A stretch of 64,000 nucleotides of DNA from Alphaproteobacteria bacterium (GTDB lineage: Bacteria > Pseudomonadota > Alphaproteobacteria > UBA8366): the NCBI GenBank assembly GCA_028281325.1, contig JANQKC010000021.1, positions 124,001 through 188,000 on the forward strand, in the 5' to 3' direction. The position numbers and the translations under genes are program-made. Every line of letters begins with the position of its first letter. Positions within the stretch are counted from its first letter, which is position 1. The notes beneath the pieces were generated by a model. The model did no database searches and was not told the DNA's origin. It saw only the letters and a program-made list of their open reading frames with translations. This document shows, in pieces, positions 4,948-13,585 of the stretch.

Positions 4948-4991
4948 TGTCATTGTAAATTGACATATAAGATTGTCAATTCCTCTAGACA
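4948..4991 (-). promoter_or_regulatory. Tandem PpsR/CrtJ operators upstream of bchC
   Basis: Two palindromes of the form TGT-N12-ACA lie in the crtF-bchC gap: TGTCATTGTAAATTGACA (4948-4965) and TGTCAATTCCTCTAGACA (4974-4991), separated by 8 bases. From established knowledge, CrtJ/PpsR represses photosynthesis genes under oxygen by binding such palindromes in pairs, including at the Rhodobacter bchC promoter. The stretch is much richer in A/T than its surroundings. The regulator itself is not in this window, so its presence is inferred. Confidence 0.85.
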
Positions 4992-6170: not shown

Positions 6171-7040
6171 CTACGCGGCGTGACTTTGCAGTTCGCGGGG
6201 CATGAACTGCCGCGCCTGCACCGTAATCAGCTTGCGAAGCTCATCCTGGCCCGGGCATGCCGGAACGGACGCAACCGCGTTCGCGACAAGGTTTTCGAGC
6301 CGCTTGATCGCCCCGTGCAGGCCCAGATCCTGGACCGCGCTCGGCCGGCCGAGCGCCAAATCCCGTCCGGTCGGCTTGCCGATATCGTCGGAGTCCGACG
6401 CGACATCATGGAGATCGTCGGCGACTTGAAAGGCCTCGCCGATACGCTCGCCCAGAACGCGCCAATCGCCAGGGCTTCGGCCTGCCGACAGCGCGCCGGC
6501 TTCGGTCGCCGCGGCGAACAGCGCGCCCGTCTTCGCGCGATGATACTCCCGCGTGTCGACCCGCGACTCGCATTCCCATGCTTGGCCCGCGACGATCCCG
6601 GACGGCACACTGACCGACCGACCGATGGTCAGCAGCAACGGCGCGAGCAATTCCGGCTTGTCCCCGACGTTGCGCGCCAGCGTTTCGAACGCCAACACGA
6701 TCAGCGCGTCGCCCGCCAGGACGGCAATCCGCTCGCCGAAGGTGCGGTGTACCGACGGTTTGCCGCGGCGCATATCCGCATCGTCGAAACAGGGCAAATC
6801 ATCGTGAACCAATGAAGCGCAATGTAGAATTTCAATGGCGGCCCCCGCGGTATTCGCGTTCATGGGGTCCGTTTCGCCGCACGCCGCCGCAACCGCCAAA
6901 CACAGTCTTGGCCGGATGCGCGCGCCGCCCGGGAACAAGGCGTAGCGCATGGCGGACGCGAGCCGCGGCGGGCAATCCGCCGGCGCCGACTGAACAATCG
7001 CCGCTTCCAAGGTCTCTTCGACTCGATCGTTGGATTCCAT
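6171..7040 (-). CDS. crtE: Geranylgeranyl diphosphate synthase
   Basis: CrtE makes the C20 precursor of carotenoids and of the bacteriochlorophyll side chain from farnesyl diphosphate and isopentenyl diphosphate. The protein has 289 residues. The first aspartate-rich motif DDLPCFDD is at 80-87, in the bacterial DDxxxxD spacing, followed by MRRGKP. The second, DDLHD, is at 208-212. The ATG has a strong GGAGG eight bases upstream. It is first in crtEF and divergent from crtD, with a shared A/T-rich promoter region. Confidence 0.95.
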   Translation of the reverse strand: MESNDRVEETLEAAIVQSAPADCPPRLASAMRYALFPGGARIRPRLCLAVAAACGETDPMNANTAGAAIEILHCASLVHDDLPCFDDADMRRGKPSVHRTFGERIAVLAGDALIVLAFETLARNVGDKPELLAPLLLTIGRSVSVPSGIVAGQAWECESRVDTREYHRAKTGALFAAATEAGALSAGRSPGDWRVLGERIGEAFQVADDLHDVASDSDDIGKPTGRDLALGRPSAVQDLGLHGAIKRLENLVANAVASVPACPGQDELRKLITVQARQFMPRELQSHAA

Positions 7041-7066: not shown

Positions 7067-7110
7067 TGTAATGACAACTTGTCACTTAATAATGTACTGT
7101 CTCCTGGACA
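7067..7110. promoter_or_regulatory. PpsR-type operator region between crtE and crtD
   Basis: The 109-base gap between the divergent crtE and crtD genes is A/T-rich. It holds TGTACTGTCTCCTGGACA (7093-7110), which fits TGT-N12-ACA but with weaker half-sites than the bchC and crtI boxes. About 10 bases away is the palindrome TGACAACTTGTCA (7072-7084), made of the same half-sites in the opposite arrangement. A paired PpsR binding region serving both directions is a reasonable inference, less certain than for bchC. Confidence 0.6.
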
Positions 7111-7149: not shown

Positions 7150-8694
7150 GTGCGAACCAGCCATGTCATCGTCGTCGGCGCCGGAATCGCGGGGCTCGTC
7201 GCCGCCGTAAGGCTCGCGATACGGGGCATCGAGGTTACCGTCCTCGAACGGGCGGACGGACCGGGCGGTAAGCTTCGGGAAATCCGCATCGGCGACGCCG
7301 CGATCGATTCCGGACCGACGGTCTTCACCATGCGCTGGGTGTTCGAGCGGATATTCAGGGAGGCCGGCGCTCGGCTTTCCGACCATCTGACGCTCCGTCC
7401 GCTCGACATTCTGGCGCGGCATGCCTGGGACGATCAGGATTACCTGGATCTGTTCGCCGATATCGACCGGTCGGCGGACGCGATAGGCCGCTTCGCCGGC
7501 AGCGCCGACGCGCGGGAATACCGCGCCTTCTGCGATCAGGCGAAGACGATTTACGAAACCCTCGAAGAAACCTTCATCGACGCGCCGCGTCCGACCAATC
7601 CGGTCACGTTGGCGCATCGGGTCGGCATGGCGAACCTATCCGGCTTGTTCGCCATCAAGCCGTTTTCCACCATGTGGCGCGCCCTCCGCCAACACTTCCG
7701 GGACGACCGGCTGCGGCAACTCTTCGGGCGCTACGCGACCTACTGCGGATCATCGCCCTATGAAGCGCCGGCGACGCTGATGCTCGTGGCCCATGTCGAA
7801 CAATCCGGCGTGTGGCGCATCGAAGGCGGTATGTTTCGCCTCGCCAAGGCCCTCGAAGCCTTGGGGCGCCGCCATGGCGTCACATTCCGCTACGGCACCG
7901 AGGCGCGGGAGATCATCGCGGCACGGAACAGCATTGCCGCCGTCGAAACCCGAACGGGCGAGCGGATCGAAGCCGACGCGATCGTCGTCAACGCGGATGC
8001 GGCCGCCGTCGCAAGCGGCCTGTTCGGACAAAACGCGGGAAACGCCGTACCGCCGGTTCACCACGCCCCGCGGTCGCTGTCGGCGGTCACGTGGTCGATG
8101 GTCGCAGAGACGGACGGCTTTCCATTGGCGCATCACTCGGTCTTCTTCTCGGGCGACTACAAGGCGGAGTTCGATGACGTCCTGCGCCACAAGCGGTTGC
8201 CCCGGTCTCCCACCGTCTATGTCTGCGCCCAGGACCGCGGCGCGTCGGCGGGCGCGGATGCCCGAACGGCCGAGCGGCTGTTCTTTCTCGTCAACGCCCC
8301 CCCGTCCGGCGACGCCGGCAATCCCAATACTGCGGAGGTCGAACAATGCGAAGAGCGGACATTTGCCCAACTGGAACGGTGCGGCCTGCGCATTCGCCGG
8401 CATCCGGAACGGACCGTCGTGACGACGCCGACGGACTTCGAGGGCCTGTTCCCGGCAACGGGCGGGGCGCTTTACGGACAAGCATCGCACGGATGGCAGG
8501 CCTCGTTCCGGCGTCCGGGCTGCCGAACGAAGATTCCCGGCCTCTACCTGGCGGGCGGCAGCACGCATCCGGGGCCGGGCATCCCGATGGCAGCGCTGTC
8601 GGGATGGCTGGCAAGCGAATCCCTCATGACGGACACGGCTTTGCGCAGGCCGTCGGTCGGAATGGCTATATCTGGTGGTATATCGACGCGCTGA
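7150..8694 (+). CDS. crtD: Methoxyneurosporene dehydrogenase (carotenoid 3,4-desaturase)
   Basis: CrtD introduces the C-3,4 double bond into hydroxylated or methoxylated carotenoids. The protein has 514 residues and is CrtI-like. The N-terminal dinucleotide fold reads VIVVGAGIAGLVAA, followed by the conserved GPGGK and DSGPTVFTM segments. The C-terminal FAD-closing motif is GLYLAGGSTHPGPGIPMAALSG. The start is GTG at 7150 with GGGAG nine bases upstream. The gene overlaps the start of crtC. It is separated from the paralogue crtI by its position next to crtC, its divergence from crtE, and the CrtD-type sequence around the C-terminal motif. Confidence 0.94.
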   Translation: MRTSHVIVVGAGIAGLVAAVRLAIRGIEVTVLERADGPGGKLREIRIGDAAIDSGPTVFTMRWVFERIFREAGARLSDHLTLRPLDILARHAWDDQDYLDLFADIDRSADAIGRFAGSADAREYRAFCDQAKTIYETLEETFIDAPRPTNPVTLAHRVGMANLSGLFAIKPFSTMWRALRQHFRDDRLRQLFGRYATYCGSSPYEAPATLMLVAHVEQSGVWRIEGGMFRLAKALEALGRRHGVTFRYGTEAREIIAARNSIAAVETRTGERIEADAIVVNADAAAVASGLFGQNAGNAVPPVHHAPRSLSAVTWSMVAETDGFPLAHHSVFFSGDYKAEFDDVLRHKRLPRSPTVYVCAQDRGASAGADARTAERLFFLVNAPPSGDAGNPNTAEVEQCEERTFAQLERCGLRIRRHPERTVVTTPTDFEGLFPATGGALYGQASHGWQASFRRPGCRTKIPGLYLAGGSTHPGPGIPMAALSGWLASESLMTDTALRRPSVGMAISGGISTR

Positions 8695-9560
8695 GCGATG
8701 ACGGCCGATACGGCCTCACGATCATCGCCTTCATCGGCAGCGTGTTTTCGAGCTACTACGCGCATGCGATTCGCGCCGGCAACGGCGACCCGGAAAACCA
8801 CTGCGCGATGAATGTCGTTTTGTATGGACCGCGCGGAAAACGCTGGGCATTCACCGAACGCGGCCGAAACGCTCTGGAGCGAAGCCCGGCATCGCTGACC
8901 ATCGGTCCGAGCGCGCTGTCATGGGACGACGGAGTCTTGACCGCGCGGATCGACGAGATAACCGCCCCGATCCCGTCGCGGCTGCGGGGAAGGATCCGGC
9001 TCTTCCCGGGCACCGCCACGCGACACGACTATTACCTGGACGCGACCGGCCGCCATCGCTGGCGGCCGGTCGCCCCGGTATCGCGGGTCGAGGTCGACCT
9101 GGACAAGCCGGATCTGTCGTGGGCCGGCGGTGCGTATCATGACTGCAACCACGGCGACGAGCCCATGGAACGCGCCTTCCGGGAATGGAATTGGTGCCGC
9201 GCGCCGGTCGGCGATGATACGGCGATTCTCTACAACGTCTCGACGCGCGACCGATCCTCCTTGCGCTTGGCGTTGCGGGTCGACGACGCCGGCGCGGTGA
9301 CGCCGTTCGACGCCCCCCCGGCCATTACCCTACCGCGCACCAAGTGGCGCGTGATCCGCAGCACCGGCGCCGATGCGGACTATCCGGCGTCGGTAACGAA
9401 GACGCTGGAAGACGCCCCCTTCTATGCGCGCTCGGTCTTGGCGACGAAGCTTTTGGGGCAAGAAACGACGGCATTCCACGAAAGTCTCGATCTCGACCGC
9501 TTCCGCTCCCGATGGGTGCAAACGCTGATTCCGTTCCGCAACCCGCGGGCATTGCGCTGA
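8604..9560 (+). CDS. crtC: Hydroxyneurosporene synthase (carotenoid 1,2-hydratase)
   Basis: CrtC adds water across the C-1,2 double bond of neurosporene or lycopene, the first committed step to methoxy carotenoids. The protein begins MAGKRIPHDGHGF and reaches the conserved block GYIWWYIDALSDDGRYGL by residue 22. Other family landmarks are GSVFSSYYA, AMNVVLYG, the WAGGAYHDCNHGDEPM block and FREWNW. The ATG at 8604 is the only plausible in-frame start close to the conserved core; it overlaps the last 91 bases of crtD and has only a weak ribosome site, so translational coupling is likely. The predicted 318 residues suit the family. Confidence 0.9.
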   Translation: MAGKRIPHDGHGFAQAVGRNGYIWWYIDALSDDGRYGLTIIAFIGSVFSSYYAHAIRAGNGDPENHCAMNVVLYGPRGKRWAFTERGRNALERSPASLTIGPSALSWDDGVLTARIDEITAPIPSRLRGRIRLFPGTATRHDYYLDATGRHRWRPVAPVSRVEVDLDKPDLSWAGGAYHDCNHGDEPMERAFREWNWCRAPVGDDTAILYNVSTRDRSSLRLALRVDDAGAVTPFDAPPAITLPRTKWRVIRSTGADADYPASVTKTLEDAPFYARSVLATKLLGQETTAFHESLDLDRFRSRWVQTLIPFRNPRALR

Positions 9561-9600: not shown

Positions 9601-9978
9601 TCATGGTTGCGATTGCCGGGCGATTTTCCGGGCCGCGGCGACCTCGCGATAGGACGTCTTGAGACGAATCCAAACGCCATAGGCCACCAGCAGGGATAGG
9701 AAGGCGGCAAGATCGAAGTAGGAGAGATAGCGCGCCGCATCGAGGACGAAATACGCGAGGACCATTTTCGCGGCCACGATGGTGAGCCCGAGGTTGATGA
9801 GCCCCGGCACGATATCGCGCAGCATCTCGAGCGACGAATGAAGCGGCGGATCGCTAGGATCCTCGCCGCGCGCATCCGCCGCCGCCCGGTCTGCGAGAAC
9901 CCGGCGGCGATGCGTCAGGGCGGAAATCAGAAACCAAGCGCCGCCCGCCACGAACAACAATCCGATCCAGTTTCGCAT
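9601..9978 (-). CDS. Unknown small membrane protein behind crtB
   Basis: I do not recognise this 125-residue protein. Three hydrophobic segments are visible: residues 4-22, about 58-80 and about 84-104. A basic loop (THRRRVLADR) with an acidic, proline-containing stretch follows the first, and the tail is basic. It starts at ATG 9978, 46 bases downstream of crtB on the same strand, and is convergent with crtC. This is the place where Rhodobacter carries tspO behind crtIB, but the length, helix number and sequence do not match TspO, which has five helices and about 160 residues. A role in the photosynthetic membrane or pigment handling is only positional inference. Confidence 0.7.
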   Translation of the reverse strand: MRNWIGLLFVAGGAWFLISALTHRRRVLADRAAADARGEDPSDPPLHSSLEMLRDIVPGLINLGLTIVAAKMVLAYFVLDAARYLSYFDLAAFLSLLVAYGVWIRLKTSYREVAAARKIARQSQP

Positions 9979-10024
9979 CGAACCAGTCTCCCGTGATGGT
10001 AGAGTTGAACCCTGTCCTTGATTT

Positions 10025-11107
10025 CTACGGCCTGGAGCGGGAGCGGATCAGTTGATCTTCACGCTCCAAACGGTCGAAGAGATCCACGACCCAGCCGGCC
10101 CGATCGTCGATCGCGTCGACGAGCGCGCGTGTCGGATTGCGCGACCGCCTTCCGGCGCCGGCCACGGCCGGCCTGTATGGCGGCAATGCGTCGAGCAGGA
10201 TGCCGGCTTCGTCCATCGGTTCGAAAGGCGAAGCCGCCGCCCGGCCAAACGGCGTCACGGCCCTTGCGACCGGGCCGAGTTTTCGCGCCGGCGACACGAC
10301 GGCGCGCGTGGTGACGGAATCCAATCCCCGACGCTCCACCTCGCGTCCGATCTCGGCATAAAGGTAGCGCGCCGCATATATTCCCGGACGGCACCCCAAG
10401 GGAAGGACGGCGATGGCTGCATCGGCCTGACGATAAAACTGCTCGGCGGTATTCAGCAGGCGCTGAATCACGCTCCCGAGCGCATCGTCAAAACACGGGT
10501 CGGCGAGCCAGGCGTCCGGATCGATGCCGGCTTCGCGCAGCCATTGCCGCGGCAGGTAAAGCCGGCCGAGCCGGGCATCTTCGCCGACGTCGCGGGCGAT
10601 ATTGGTGAGCTGCATGGCCACGCCGAGATCGCAGGCGCGGGCGACCATCGCGGGCTGCCGTCGTCCCATCAGCAGCGCCATCATCGCACCGACCGAGCCA
10701 GCCACCCGAACCGCGTAAGCCGTTACGTCCGAGAGCGTCTCGTAGCCGCGGCCCGACACGTCCCACGCGAAACCGTCGAACAAGGCTTCGAAGAACGGCT
10801 TCGGCACCTCGAACCGGTCGACCAGAACCGTAAGCGCCCGGTCCACGGCATCGTCGCCGGGCGCGCCGCGATAGATTCGATCCAGCCGTTCGTGCAACCG
10901 GGCCAGCGCGGCGGCGTGATCCCCGTCCGTCTCGACGGCGTCGTCAATCGCATCGTCCGCGATACGACAGAAGGCGTACAATACCGTCGCGGGATCGCGC
11001 ACCGACGGCGGCAGGAAAAACGAGGCGGCGAAAAAGGAGCGGGATCCGCAGCTGAGCCGAGACCGGCATTCCGCAAGGTCGCGAGGATCAAACATATTCG
11101 CTGGCAT
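10025..11107 (-). CDS. crtB: Phytoene synthase
   Basis: CrtB condenses two geranylgeranyl diphosphates to phytoene. The protein has 360 residues. The magnesium-binding aspartate motifs are DDAID at 51-55 and DVGED at 173-177 within QLTNIARDVGEDARLGRLYLP. The segment SRSFFAASFFLPP at 22-34 is typical. The start used is ATG 11107, which overlaps the crtI 3' end by 20 bases; a second ATG at 11095 would shorten the protein by four residues and cannot be excluded. It forms a unit with crtI and the small membrane protein downstream. Confidence 0.95.
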   Translation of the reverse strand: MPANMFDPRDLAECRSRLSCGSRSFFAASFFLPPSVRDPATVLYAFCRIADDAIDDAVETDGDHAAALARLHERLDRIYRGAPGDDAVDRALTVLVDRFEVPKPFFEALFDGFAWDVSGRGYETLSDVTAYAVRVAGSVGAMMALLMGRRQPAMVARACDLGVAMQLTNIARDVGEDARLGRLYLPRQWLREAGIDPDAWLADPCFDDALGSVIQRLLNTAEQFYRQADAAIAVLPLGCRPGIYAARYLYAEIGREVERRGLDSVTTRAVVSPARKLGPVARAVTPFGRAAASPFEPMDEAGILLDALPPYRPAVAGAGRRSRNPTRALVDAIDDRAGWVVDLFDRLEREDQLIRSRSRP

Positions 11108-12605
11108 GCGGCGTCACCGTATCGAGAATGCGGGCGGAAGACAAAACGCCCGGCAGGCCCGCGCCCGGATGGGTTCCGGCGCCCACGAGATAGAGACCAT
11201 CGATATCCTCGCTCTTATTATGCGGCCGGAACCAGGCGCTTTGCGTCAAGACGGGCTCCAAGCCGAACGCGGCCCCTTTCAGGGACAACAGTTCGTCCTG
11301 AAAATACTGCGGCGTGATCATTCGGGAGGAGACGATCCGTTCTTCCAACCCGGGCAAGACGGTGTCGGCGAGGCGACGCGATATCGCCTGCCGATACGGT
11401 TCCGCCGCGGTGGTCCAATCGGTGCCGCTGTCGAGATGCGGGACCGGCGACAACACGTAGAAACCGTCGCATCCCTCCGGCGCCAGCGATGGGTCCGTCG
11501 CCGTCGGCCGATGCAGATACAGACTGAAATCCGGCGCGAGAACTTTCCGGTCGAAGATATCGCGCAGCAACCCGCGATGCCTCGGTCCCAGAACGATGGT
11601 GTGATGCTGAACATCCGGATAGCGCCGCCGCGTTCCGAAGTACCAAACGAACAGGCTCATCGAATACCGCGACCGATCGATTTTCCGGTCGGTCCAACGC
11701 CGCCGGTACTGCGCGGGCAACAGGGTGCGATAGGTCGCCGCGGAATCCGCGTTCGAGACGACAATCGCCGCGTCCAGCCGTTCGCCCGTGGCCAGGCGCA
11801 CCCCGGTCGCCTTGCCGTTCCGGACGGCAATCGACTCGACTTGCGCATTGTAGAGGATCTCGCCGCCTTGACCCCGGATGAGCGAGACCAACCCCTCCAC
11901 CAGCCGGCCCGTACCGCCCATGGCGAAATACACGCCCCAACGCCGTTCGAGAAAGGCGATCAGCGCGTAGATCGAACTCGTGGTGAACGGATTGCCGCCG
12001 ACAAGCAAGGGATGAAAACTCAAGATCAACCGAAGCCGAGGGTCCCGCACGAAGCTCGACACGAAACCGTAGACCGAGCGATAGCTCTTCAATCGAACCA
12101 TGTCCGGAACCAAACGCGCCATATCGGTCCATGTGCTGAAGGGCACATCGCCAAGCTGCTCGAAGCCGATCTTGAAGGTCGCCTCGGACGCCCGCATGAA
12201 CCTTTCGTAGCCGGCGACATCGGACGGCGAGAACTTGCCGACCTCGGCGCGCATGGCCTCCGGGTCGCCGGAATAGTCGAAGGTCTCGCCGGTATGGAAG
12301 TGCATGCGATAGAACGGATCCACGGCGCGAAGCTCGACATCGTCCGACATCCGTCTACCGCATAGCTGCCACAACTCTTCGAACAGGAAGGGCGCGGTCA
12401 CGATGGTAGGGCCGGCGTCGAACACGAACCCGTCCTGCCGGAAAACGCGCGCCCGACCGCCCGGGCTGTCGAGTTTTTCCAGGACGGTAACGTGATATCC
12501 CCGGGCGCCGAGGCGGATCGCTGCGGCCAGGCCGCCAAATCCGCTGCCGATGACGATCGCACGAGGTCTGTCGGGTCGGAAATTGTCGTCAGGCAAAACT
12601 GTCAC
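11088..12605 (-). CDS. crtI: Phytoene desaturase
   Basis: CrtI performs the successive desaturations of phytoene to neurosporene or lycopene. The protein has about 505 residues. The dinucleotide fold IVIGSGFGGLAAAIRL is close to the N-terminus, followed by SPGGRARVF and FDAGPTIVTAPFL; the C-terminal FAD motif is GLYLVGAGTHPGAGLPGVL. Whether it makes three or four desaturations cannot be read from the motifs. The start is uncertain: GTG at 12605 is used because the alternative TTG at 12617 lies inside the PpsR palindrome. Neither has a clear ribosome site. It is first in crtI-crtB-membrane protein. Confidence 0.94.
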   Translation of the reverse strand: MTVLPDDNFRPDRPRAIVIGSGFGGLAAAIRLGARGYHVTVLEKLDSPGGRARVFRQDGFVFDAGPTIVTAPFLFEELWQLCGRRMSDDVELRAVDPFYRMHFHTGETFDYSGDPEAMRAEVGKFSPSDVAGYERFMRASEATFKIGFEQLGDVPFSTWTDMARLVPDMVRLKSYRSVYGFVSSFVRDPRLRLILSFHPLLVGGNPFTTSSIYALIAFLERRWGVYFAMGGTGRLVEGLVSLIRGQGGEILYNAQVESIAVRNGKATGVRLATGERLDAAIVVSNADSAATYRTLLPAQYRRRWTDRKIDRSRYSMSLFVWYFGTRRRYPDVQHHTIVLGPRHRGLLRDIFDRKVLAPDFSLYLHRPTATDPSLAPEGCDGFYVLSPVPHLDSGTDWTTAAEPYRQAISRRLADTVLPGLEERIVSSRMITPQYFQDELLSLKGAAFGLEPVLTQSAWFRPHNKSEDIDGLYLVGAGTHPGAGLPGVLSSARILDTVTPHASEYV

Positions 12606-12611
12606 ACTGTT

Positions 12612-12629
12612 TGTCAATTATTATTGACA
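12612..12629 (-). promoter_or_regulatory. PpsR/CrtJ operator at the crtI start
   Basis: TGTCAATTATTATTGACA is a perfect inverted repeat with 7-base arms (TGTCAAT / ATTGACA) around TATT, matching TGT-N12-ACA. It is the best such site in the window. It lies only seven bases upstream of the GTG used for crtI and overlaps the alternative TTG, inside the 89-base gap between crtI and bchO. Binding there would block initiation of the crtIB transcript. No second full site is seen nearby. Confidence 0.82.
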
Positions 12630-12683: not shown

Positions 12684-12709
12684 GCGGCGGCGGCCTATGT
12701 CGCCGCCGC
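12684..12709 (-). terminator. Possible hairpin at the bchO 3' end
   Basis: A perfect 9-base inverted repeat GCGGCGGCG / CGCCGCCGC with an 8-base loop straddles the bchO stop codon and lies just before the crtI promoter region. No T-run follows, so it could be a weak or Rho-dependent terminator, an RNA-stabilising stem, or simply a GC-rich coincidence. Confidence 0.35.
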
Positions 12710-13585
12710 AACCTTCAACCGGTGGGCAAATCGGCTGATGATCGCCGCCGTCGCGTCCGGGTCTTCTTCATGCGCGAGATGGCCGAGACCGGACAACGAC
12801 GCCAACTCCGTCGCGGGCGCCAGGCGATGAACCTGACGCGAATGCGACGGCGGCACCGTGCGGTCGTTGCTGCCCGTCACCAACAGCAGCGGCACCTGAA
12901 GCCGCGGCAAGTTCCGTTTGAGGGTGCGAAGATCCCAATTCGCCATCATGCCGAAAGCGGCGGCGACGTGGCCGGAGTTACGGGCCAAACGGCCGTACAG
13001 ATCCATGCCCTCCGGGTCCAACGTCGATCCCGTTTCGCGGATGAGCCGTTCGAGCACCGTCGGATTGGCGGCACGCGACGCGAAAAACCAAGGGATCAGC
13101 GGCCCGGCGGCGCAAATCCGGGCCAGCGGCGAAAAGACCTGCCCAGCCACACCGCCCAACGGCAACAACGCGCCGTTCACACTCACCACGCCGCGCAGGG
13201 GGTGCCCCTTCTTCAGCGCCATTTGAGCAAGGATCGCGGCACCGGCGGAATGTCCGACGCCGAGCACCGGTTCGGCATCGAGTTCCGCGATGAGGTCGGC
13301 CAGCGCACCGGCCATTCCCGGCAACGACAGCCGGTATCCCGAAGCCGCGCTGGTGAAACCGTGCCCCGGCAAATCGACGGCGATGACCGAGAAGGAGTCC
13401 GCCAGGATCGGGATCAACGCGCGCCAAGAATGGGTCGACGCGCCGGTGCCGTGGATAAGAAGGACTTCCGGCCCCTCGCCCATGCGCTGCACATGCCATT
13501 GCATGCCGGCCGCGGTCACGAACGTACTGGCCTCGCCGTTCGGCCAGTCGCGCCCGTCACGGTCCCATATCAAGCGATCAAGCAT
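12695..13585 (-). CDS. bchO: Alpha/beta hydrolase BchO, magnesium chelatase-associated
   Basis: BchO is encoded with bchI and bchD in phototrophic proteobacteria and is regarded as a magnesium-chelatase accessory hydrolase; its reaction is not established. The protein has 296 residues. The fold shows in LLIHGTGASTHSW (oxyanion region), VDLPGHGFT, the nucleophile elbow GVGHSAGAA and the late histidine in LSGLGHLAHEE. The sequence WDRDGRDWPN near residue 10 is typical of BchO. It starts 66 bases after bchD and ends the bchIDO unit, so assignment rests strongly on context. Confidence 0.93.
   Translation of the reverse strand: MLDRLIWDRDGRDWPNGEASTFVTAAGMQWHVQRMGEGPEVLLIHGTGASTHSWRALIPILADSFSVIAVDLPGHGFTSAASGYRLSLPGMAGALADLIAELDAEPVLGVGHSAGAAILAQMALKKGHPLRGVVSVNGALLPLGGVAGQVFSPLARICAAGPLIPWFFASRAANPTVLERLIRETGSTLDPEGMDLYGRLARNSGHVAAAFGMMANWDLRTLKRNLPRLQVPLLLVTGSNDRTVPPSHSRQVHRLAPATELASLSGLGHLAHEEDPDATAAIISRFAHRLKVAAAT

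Follow-up and report, generated by a model that had tools for sequence, protein, structure and literature searches.

The crtI-crtB-orf unit

A small gene on the minus strand of the window (the whole stretch of DNA that was analysed, 64,000 nucleotides long) occupies positions 9601-9978, where the open reading frame listing gives 125 amino acids from an ATG start. The listing, a family alignment, a structure model and coding tests together describe this gene, hereafter orf, as encoding a crtB-linked, three-helix membrane protein. It is preceded on the same strand by crtB, encoding phytoene synthase (10025-11107; SQS_PSY, 2e-71; PhytnSynCrtBRhod, 1e-111), with 46 nt between the crtB stop and the orf ATG (9979-10024, minus strand), within which direct reading of the sequence places a GGGAGA ribosome-binding site 8 nt 5' of the start. 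The phytoene desaturase gene crtI (11088-12617, minus strand; TIGR02734, 4e-187) overlaps crtB by approximately 20 nt, and beyond it lies bchO (12695-13585, minus strand; TIGR03056, 5e-91). On the other side, 40 nt separate the end of orf from its convergent neighbour crtC, encoding carotenoid 1,2-hydratase (8721-9560, plus strand, the start being approximate; NF045922, 5e-84), beyond which are crtD (7150-8694, plus strand; NF045637, 1e-212) and crtE, a GGPP/FPP-type prenyl synthase gene recognised by an NCBIfam model scan (6171-7040, minus strand).

The crtI-crtB-orf unit, of which orf is the last gene, starts at a perfect palindrome, TGTCAATAATAATTGACA (12612-12629, minus strand), which was recovered by a box search of the window, overlaps the head of crtI, and is presumably a PpsR/CrtJ-type box. 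The form TGT-N12-ACA is enriched approximately threefold within the window, with 12 occurrences found against 3.9 expected from shuffles; two perfect palindromes of this kind sit inside 45 bp at 4948-4991, and a further one lies upstream of crtD at 7093-7110. RNA folding at the 3' end scored no better than that of shuffled sequences. We infer that crtI, crtB and orf are co-transcribed; in Rhodobacter, the crtI-crtB operon is regulated by oxygen and RegA (PMC10604819).

The GC content at the three codon positions of orf (0.67/0.47/0.75) is like that of crtB (0.72/0.52/0.77), and dN/dS between pairs of Belnapia-type members of its family ranged from 0.12 to 0.73, mostly below 0.45, as would be expected of proteins under purifying selection. 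Homologues at 21-53% identity keep the frame and the conserved residues. Sequence comparison thus identifies orf as a real gene, its protein under purifying selection, rather than a chance ORF. The 125-residue gene proposed at exactly these coordinates by the first-pass annotation is therefore confirmed, through both its coding signal and its homologues.

Homologues, structure and topology

Neither Pfam, NCBIfam and PHROGs nor the sequences of the PDB gave a match to the orf protein; a single-sequence search of genome contigs found no relative, nor did one of 38 close relatives, most of which also lack crtC. Its orphan status was dropped when the neighbours downstream of crtB revealed homologues. 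With crtB used as the search query instead, the ORFs surrounding 80 crtB loci were scanned, and 11 of these loci had a homologue directly downstream of crtB (E from 3e-22 to 7e-6); profiles built from these 11 brought in further members. The alignment used here (A3) has 24 rows, each 21-53% identical to the window protein. In the tables examined, none of these 24 members exceeded a curated cut-off in Pfam or NCBIfam, the best stray matches having E = 0.002 and each occurring in one or two members, and a search of plasmid records found no match to the family. Several weak candidates were judged to be chance or unrelated matches: L092 (E = 0.004, with two in-frame stops), L161, L162 and L165 (E = 0.002-0.009), and L037, where the match is to a distinct protein of 192 aa, 1.2 kb away from crtB. 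Apparent fusions of family members with crtB (L085, L145 and others) were long frames overlapping crtB in another frame. The orf protein belongs to a coherent, undescribed family, and no paper naming such a gene was found in a literature search that covered mostly open-access work.

Near-invariant positions of the alignment are G6, R24, P59 (G in the window protein), D89, G92 (A in the window protein) and Y100, while W103 is present in 20 of the 24 rows; the strongest conservation, at D89, G92, Y100 and W103, falls in helix 3. The AlphaFold2 model made with the 24-row alignment (mean pLDDT 91.5, pTM 0.78) bears out the original description of a three-helix protein, with helices at 4-36, 48-78 and 87-109 and a short one at 113-122, the first of which reaches past the membrane. 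Because lysine and arginine are distributed asymmetrically, with family means of 5.2 in loop 1, 0.4 in loop 2 and 2.3 in the tail, loop 1 and the C-terminal tail are predicted to be cytoplasmic, and the N-terminus periplasmic. Foldseek found no match among PDB structures at E <= 0.001 (best 2.5), and the best VIA-align hit, to soluble MazG-like helices, had a Z of 5.9, which is within the chance range for helical bundles; a missing PDB match does not prove a new fold.

Linkage to crtB and distribution among phototrophs

The family was found in 27 genomes, comprising the window genome, Belnapia, Roseicella, Craurococcus, other Acetobacteraceae, Hyphomicrobium MAGs and others, and each of these has the gene immediately after crtB, in the same orientation. 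The distance from the crtB stop to its start is between -34 and 85 nt in 26 of them, and 181 nt in the remaining one. The gene upstream of crtB is crtI at all 21 loci of a 220-genome sample of the family holding Belnapia. The distance to crtC varies: some loci of Belnapia and Craurococcus have this gene approximately 1.3 kb beyond orf, and it was not seen in other stretches that were fetched. The neighbour that stays constant is thus crtB, and not crtC or tspO. Distances between family proteins and between the corresponding CrtB proteins are correlated (Mantel r = 0.88, reached in 0 of 2000 permutations), which fits co-inheritance, although shared ancestry alone could produce such a correlation. 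At one locus (L157:1804-3042, genome G533), the crtB match beside the family member spreads across two open frames, which suggests that crtB contains a stop, a frameshift or an assembly error.

The distribution was assessed in two main samples. Firstly, in an even class-wide sample of 385 genomes, the family was carried by two of the 26 crtC-positive genomes, these being the window genome and G133, and by none of the 359 without crtC. Secondly, reaction-centre (puf) genes exceeded the curated cut-off in 74 genomes of the 220-genome, Acetobacteraceae-type sample, and carriers made up 21 of these 74 against none of the 146 puf-negative genomes (Fisher p = 1e-11, ignoring phylogeny). The carriers reached via crtB loci were all pufLM-positive, with one match in G433 and two in the others, and in the window genome pufL and pufM are located ahead of the window start, at a distance of approximately 1-3 kb. 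Four genomes of the Belnapia family sample (G477, G560, G636 and G542) had three to five reaction-centre matches each, a possible sign of two pufLM sets or of mixed binning. Searches of the wider phylum (329 genomes) and of the Hyphomicrobium family (103 genomes) gave no further convincing match. Within these samples, the family is therefore patchily distributed and restricted to phototrophs. The suggestion that orf is a new photosynthesis-cluster component, which was to be checked by looking for homologues clustered with crtB, is supported by a fixed place behind crtB in every carrier and by every carrier genome tested being a phototroph; homologues occurring equally in non-phototrophs, and away from crt genes, were not what these samples contained.

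Nevertheless, 53 of the 74 puf-positive genomes in the Acetobacteraceae-type sample lack the family, and no diverged copy was detected, even at E < 1, at 30 crtB loci of puf-positive genomes without a match. Hence the gene is optional, and dispensable for phytoene synthesis in general. Most of the crtB loci fetched from Beta- and Gammaproteobacteria have little or no room for such an ORF.

Candidate functions and comparison with TspO

Photosynthesis gene clusters are among the best mapped of bacterial clusters, and an unnamed gene fixed behind crtB in several families is therefore a real gap. The protein probably assists in making carotenoids or building the photosystem, as an accessory not described before. 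As the constant linkage is with crtB, and not with crtC or tspO, the reading that we place first, tentatively and at somewhat less than even confidence, is that it acts as an inner-membrane partner of phytoene synthase (CrtB/CrtI). The three helices would present two positively charged surfaces to the cytoplasm, one made up of loop 1 and the helix 1 end bearing R24-R25, the other of the K/R-rich tail; these could dock CrtB, possibly also CrtI, onto the membrane, such that phytoene made from soluble GGPP would pass straight into the bilayer and on to the desaturase. This is consistent with the unbroken same-strand linkage, the correlation with CrtB distances, the confinement of carriers to phototrophs in both samples, the contrast in charge between loops 1 and 2, and the PpsR-type box heading the unit. 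Against it, physical contact with CrtB is a prediction from gene linkage, most crtB-bearing phototrophs lack the gene, the last place in an operon is no proof of action on the adjoining enzyme, and the conservation of helix 3 may indicate a membrane-embedded role instead of a docking face. The fuller proposal, of an unnamed three-helix component dedicated to bacterial carotenoid synthesis, by which some anoxygenic phototrophs would assemble phytoene synthase (and perhaps CrtI) at the membrane, is put forward a shade more cautiously. If CrtB is indeed held at the membrane, this would account for the conversion of soluble GGPP to membrane-borne phytoene in the carrier species, and orf could serve carotenoid engineering.

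A role in photosystem assembly, whether as a small membrane subunit of RC-LH1 or as a factor delivering carotenoid to it, the gene merely sharing the crtIB promoter, ranks second because the restriction to reaction-centre genomes is equally strict: in all samples the family occurs only in genomes with pufLM, and never without a reaction centre. A small helical membrane protein with its best-conserved positions in helix 3 would suit such a role. It is nonetheless unlikely: the linkage to crtB is unbroken, and neither the PDB profile search nor Foldseek gave a significant match in a library that includes solved RC-LH1 complexes. More doubtful again is a membrane protein of photooxidative stress, or of lipid or quinone handling, that hitch-hikes on PpsR-controlled carotenoid expression and does not touch the carotenoid enzymes. 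The place of orf under a PpsR-type box would permit this, and the patchy presence in 21 of 74 phototrophs suggests an optional, habitat-linked role, but it is the link with crtB, not with any PpsR-controlled operon, that holds in 27 genomes.

The remaining functional alternative concerns TspO. In the window, orf follows crtI-crtB and converges with crtC, and hence fills the slot between crtB and crtC that tspO occupies in other photosynthesis gene clusters (PGCs), as seen at nine loci and at L172. Rhodobacter tspO, originally named crtK, sits in this slot and represses crt genes (PMC10604819). The orf protein could by analogy be a membrane porphyrin or oxygen sensor, or an exporter, tuning the expression of pigment genes from the position of tspO (crtK). 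Such a TspO-like regulatory role is unlikely, and we consider it the least probable of the functional readings, since TspO is itself encoded in all 27 carriers. In G592, tspO and orf share the crtC-crtB interval, and tspO lies ahead of crtI-crtB-orf on the same strand in G557, G606 and G479 (approximately 3 kb upstream) and at L088 (approximately 6 kb upstream). The proteins are also unrelated: aligning the family to slot TspOs with hhalign gave a probability of 0.6%, Pfam TspO (PF03073) matched neither the orf protein nor the other 23 members, and the residues invariant in slot TspOs (the W/P/N signature) have no counterpart in the family alignment. Hence the lack of resemblance to TspO reported in the first-pass annotation holds, whereas its idea of a replacement for TspO is not supported, given the coexistence of the two in every carrier, sometimes in the same crt neighbourhood, and their unrelated profiles. 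A functionless lineage-specific ORF, whether arising by chance or a decaying insert, is scarcely conceivable despite the absence of matches in Pfam, NCBIfam, PHROGs and PDB and among the 38 close relatives, being refuted by an alignment that spans several bacterial families, with purifying selection, a fixed position and a confident fold, and most of the relatives without orf being also without crtC.

The window genome has two copies of tspO. One (G000:C20:93250-93663, L158) is approximately 31 kb before the window start, inside the photosynthesis cluster, where it adjoins bchP/bchG-like genes, these bch names being our own reading of the sequences; the second (G000:C35:48526-48945, L197) is on a different contig, remote from photosynthesis genes. 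There is precedent for a PGC with a tspO copy at each end (PMC7762795). For annotation, a gene that follows crtB need not be tspO, in which case TspO is encoded elsewhere in the genome.

A separate, smaller ORF of approximately 40-50 residues, whose product has a single membrane helix and a basic tail, was observed behind tspO at L021, L030, L073 and L090, and one of the same type behind crtB at L036. This recurrent ORF behind crtB-tspO may correspond to the "hyp" in the cluster order crtIBK-hyp-crtCDEF. In the stretch around crtC at L196, which has a Rhodobacter-type CrtC and in which no crtB was identified, the best match to the family had E = 0.85.

What this locus adds is a new, phototroph-restricted family inside a well-known kind of cluster, rather than a new mechanism. 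It resembles TspO/CrtK (PF03073) in occupying the same PGC slot, as a small integral membrane protein encoded in the same orientation as crtIB, but TspO/CrtK has five helices and a W/P-rich signature, whereas the orf family has three helices and lacks that signature. The arrangement is also like that of Roseobacter, where the cluster order is crtAIBK-hyp-crtCDEF (PMC3176799), in that crtI and crtB are followed by a gene for a small membrane protein within a regulated carotenoid operon of the photosynthesis cluster. The difference from the crtIB(K) operons of purple bacteria lies in the third gene, which here represents a new family.
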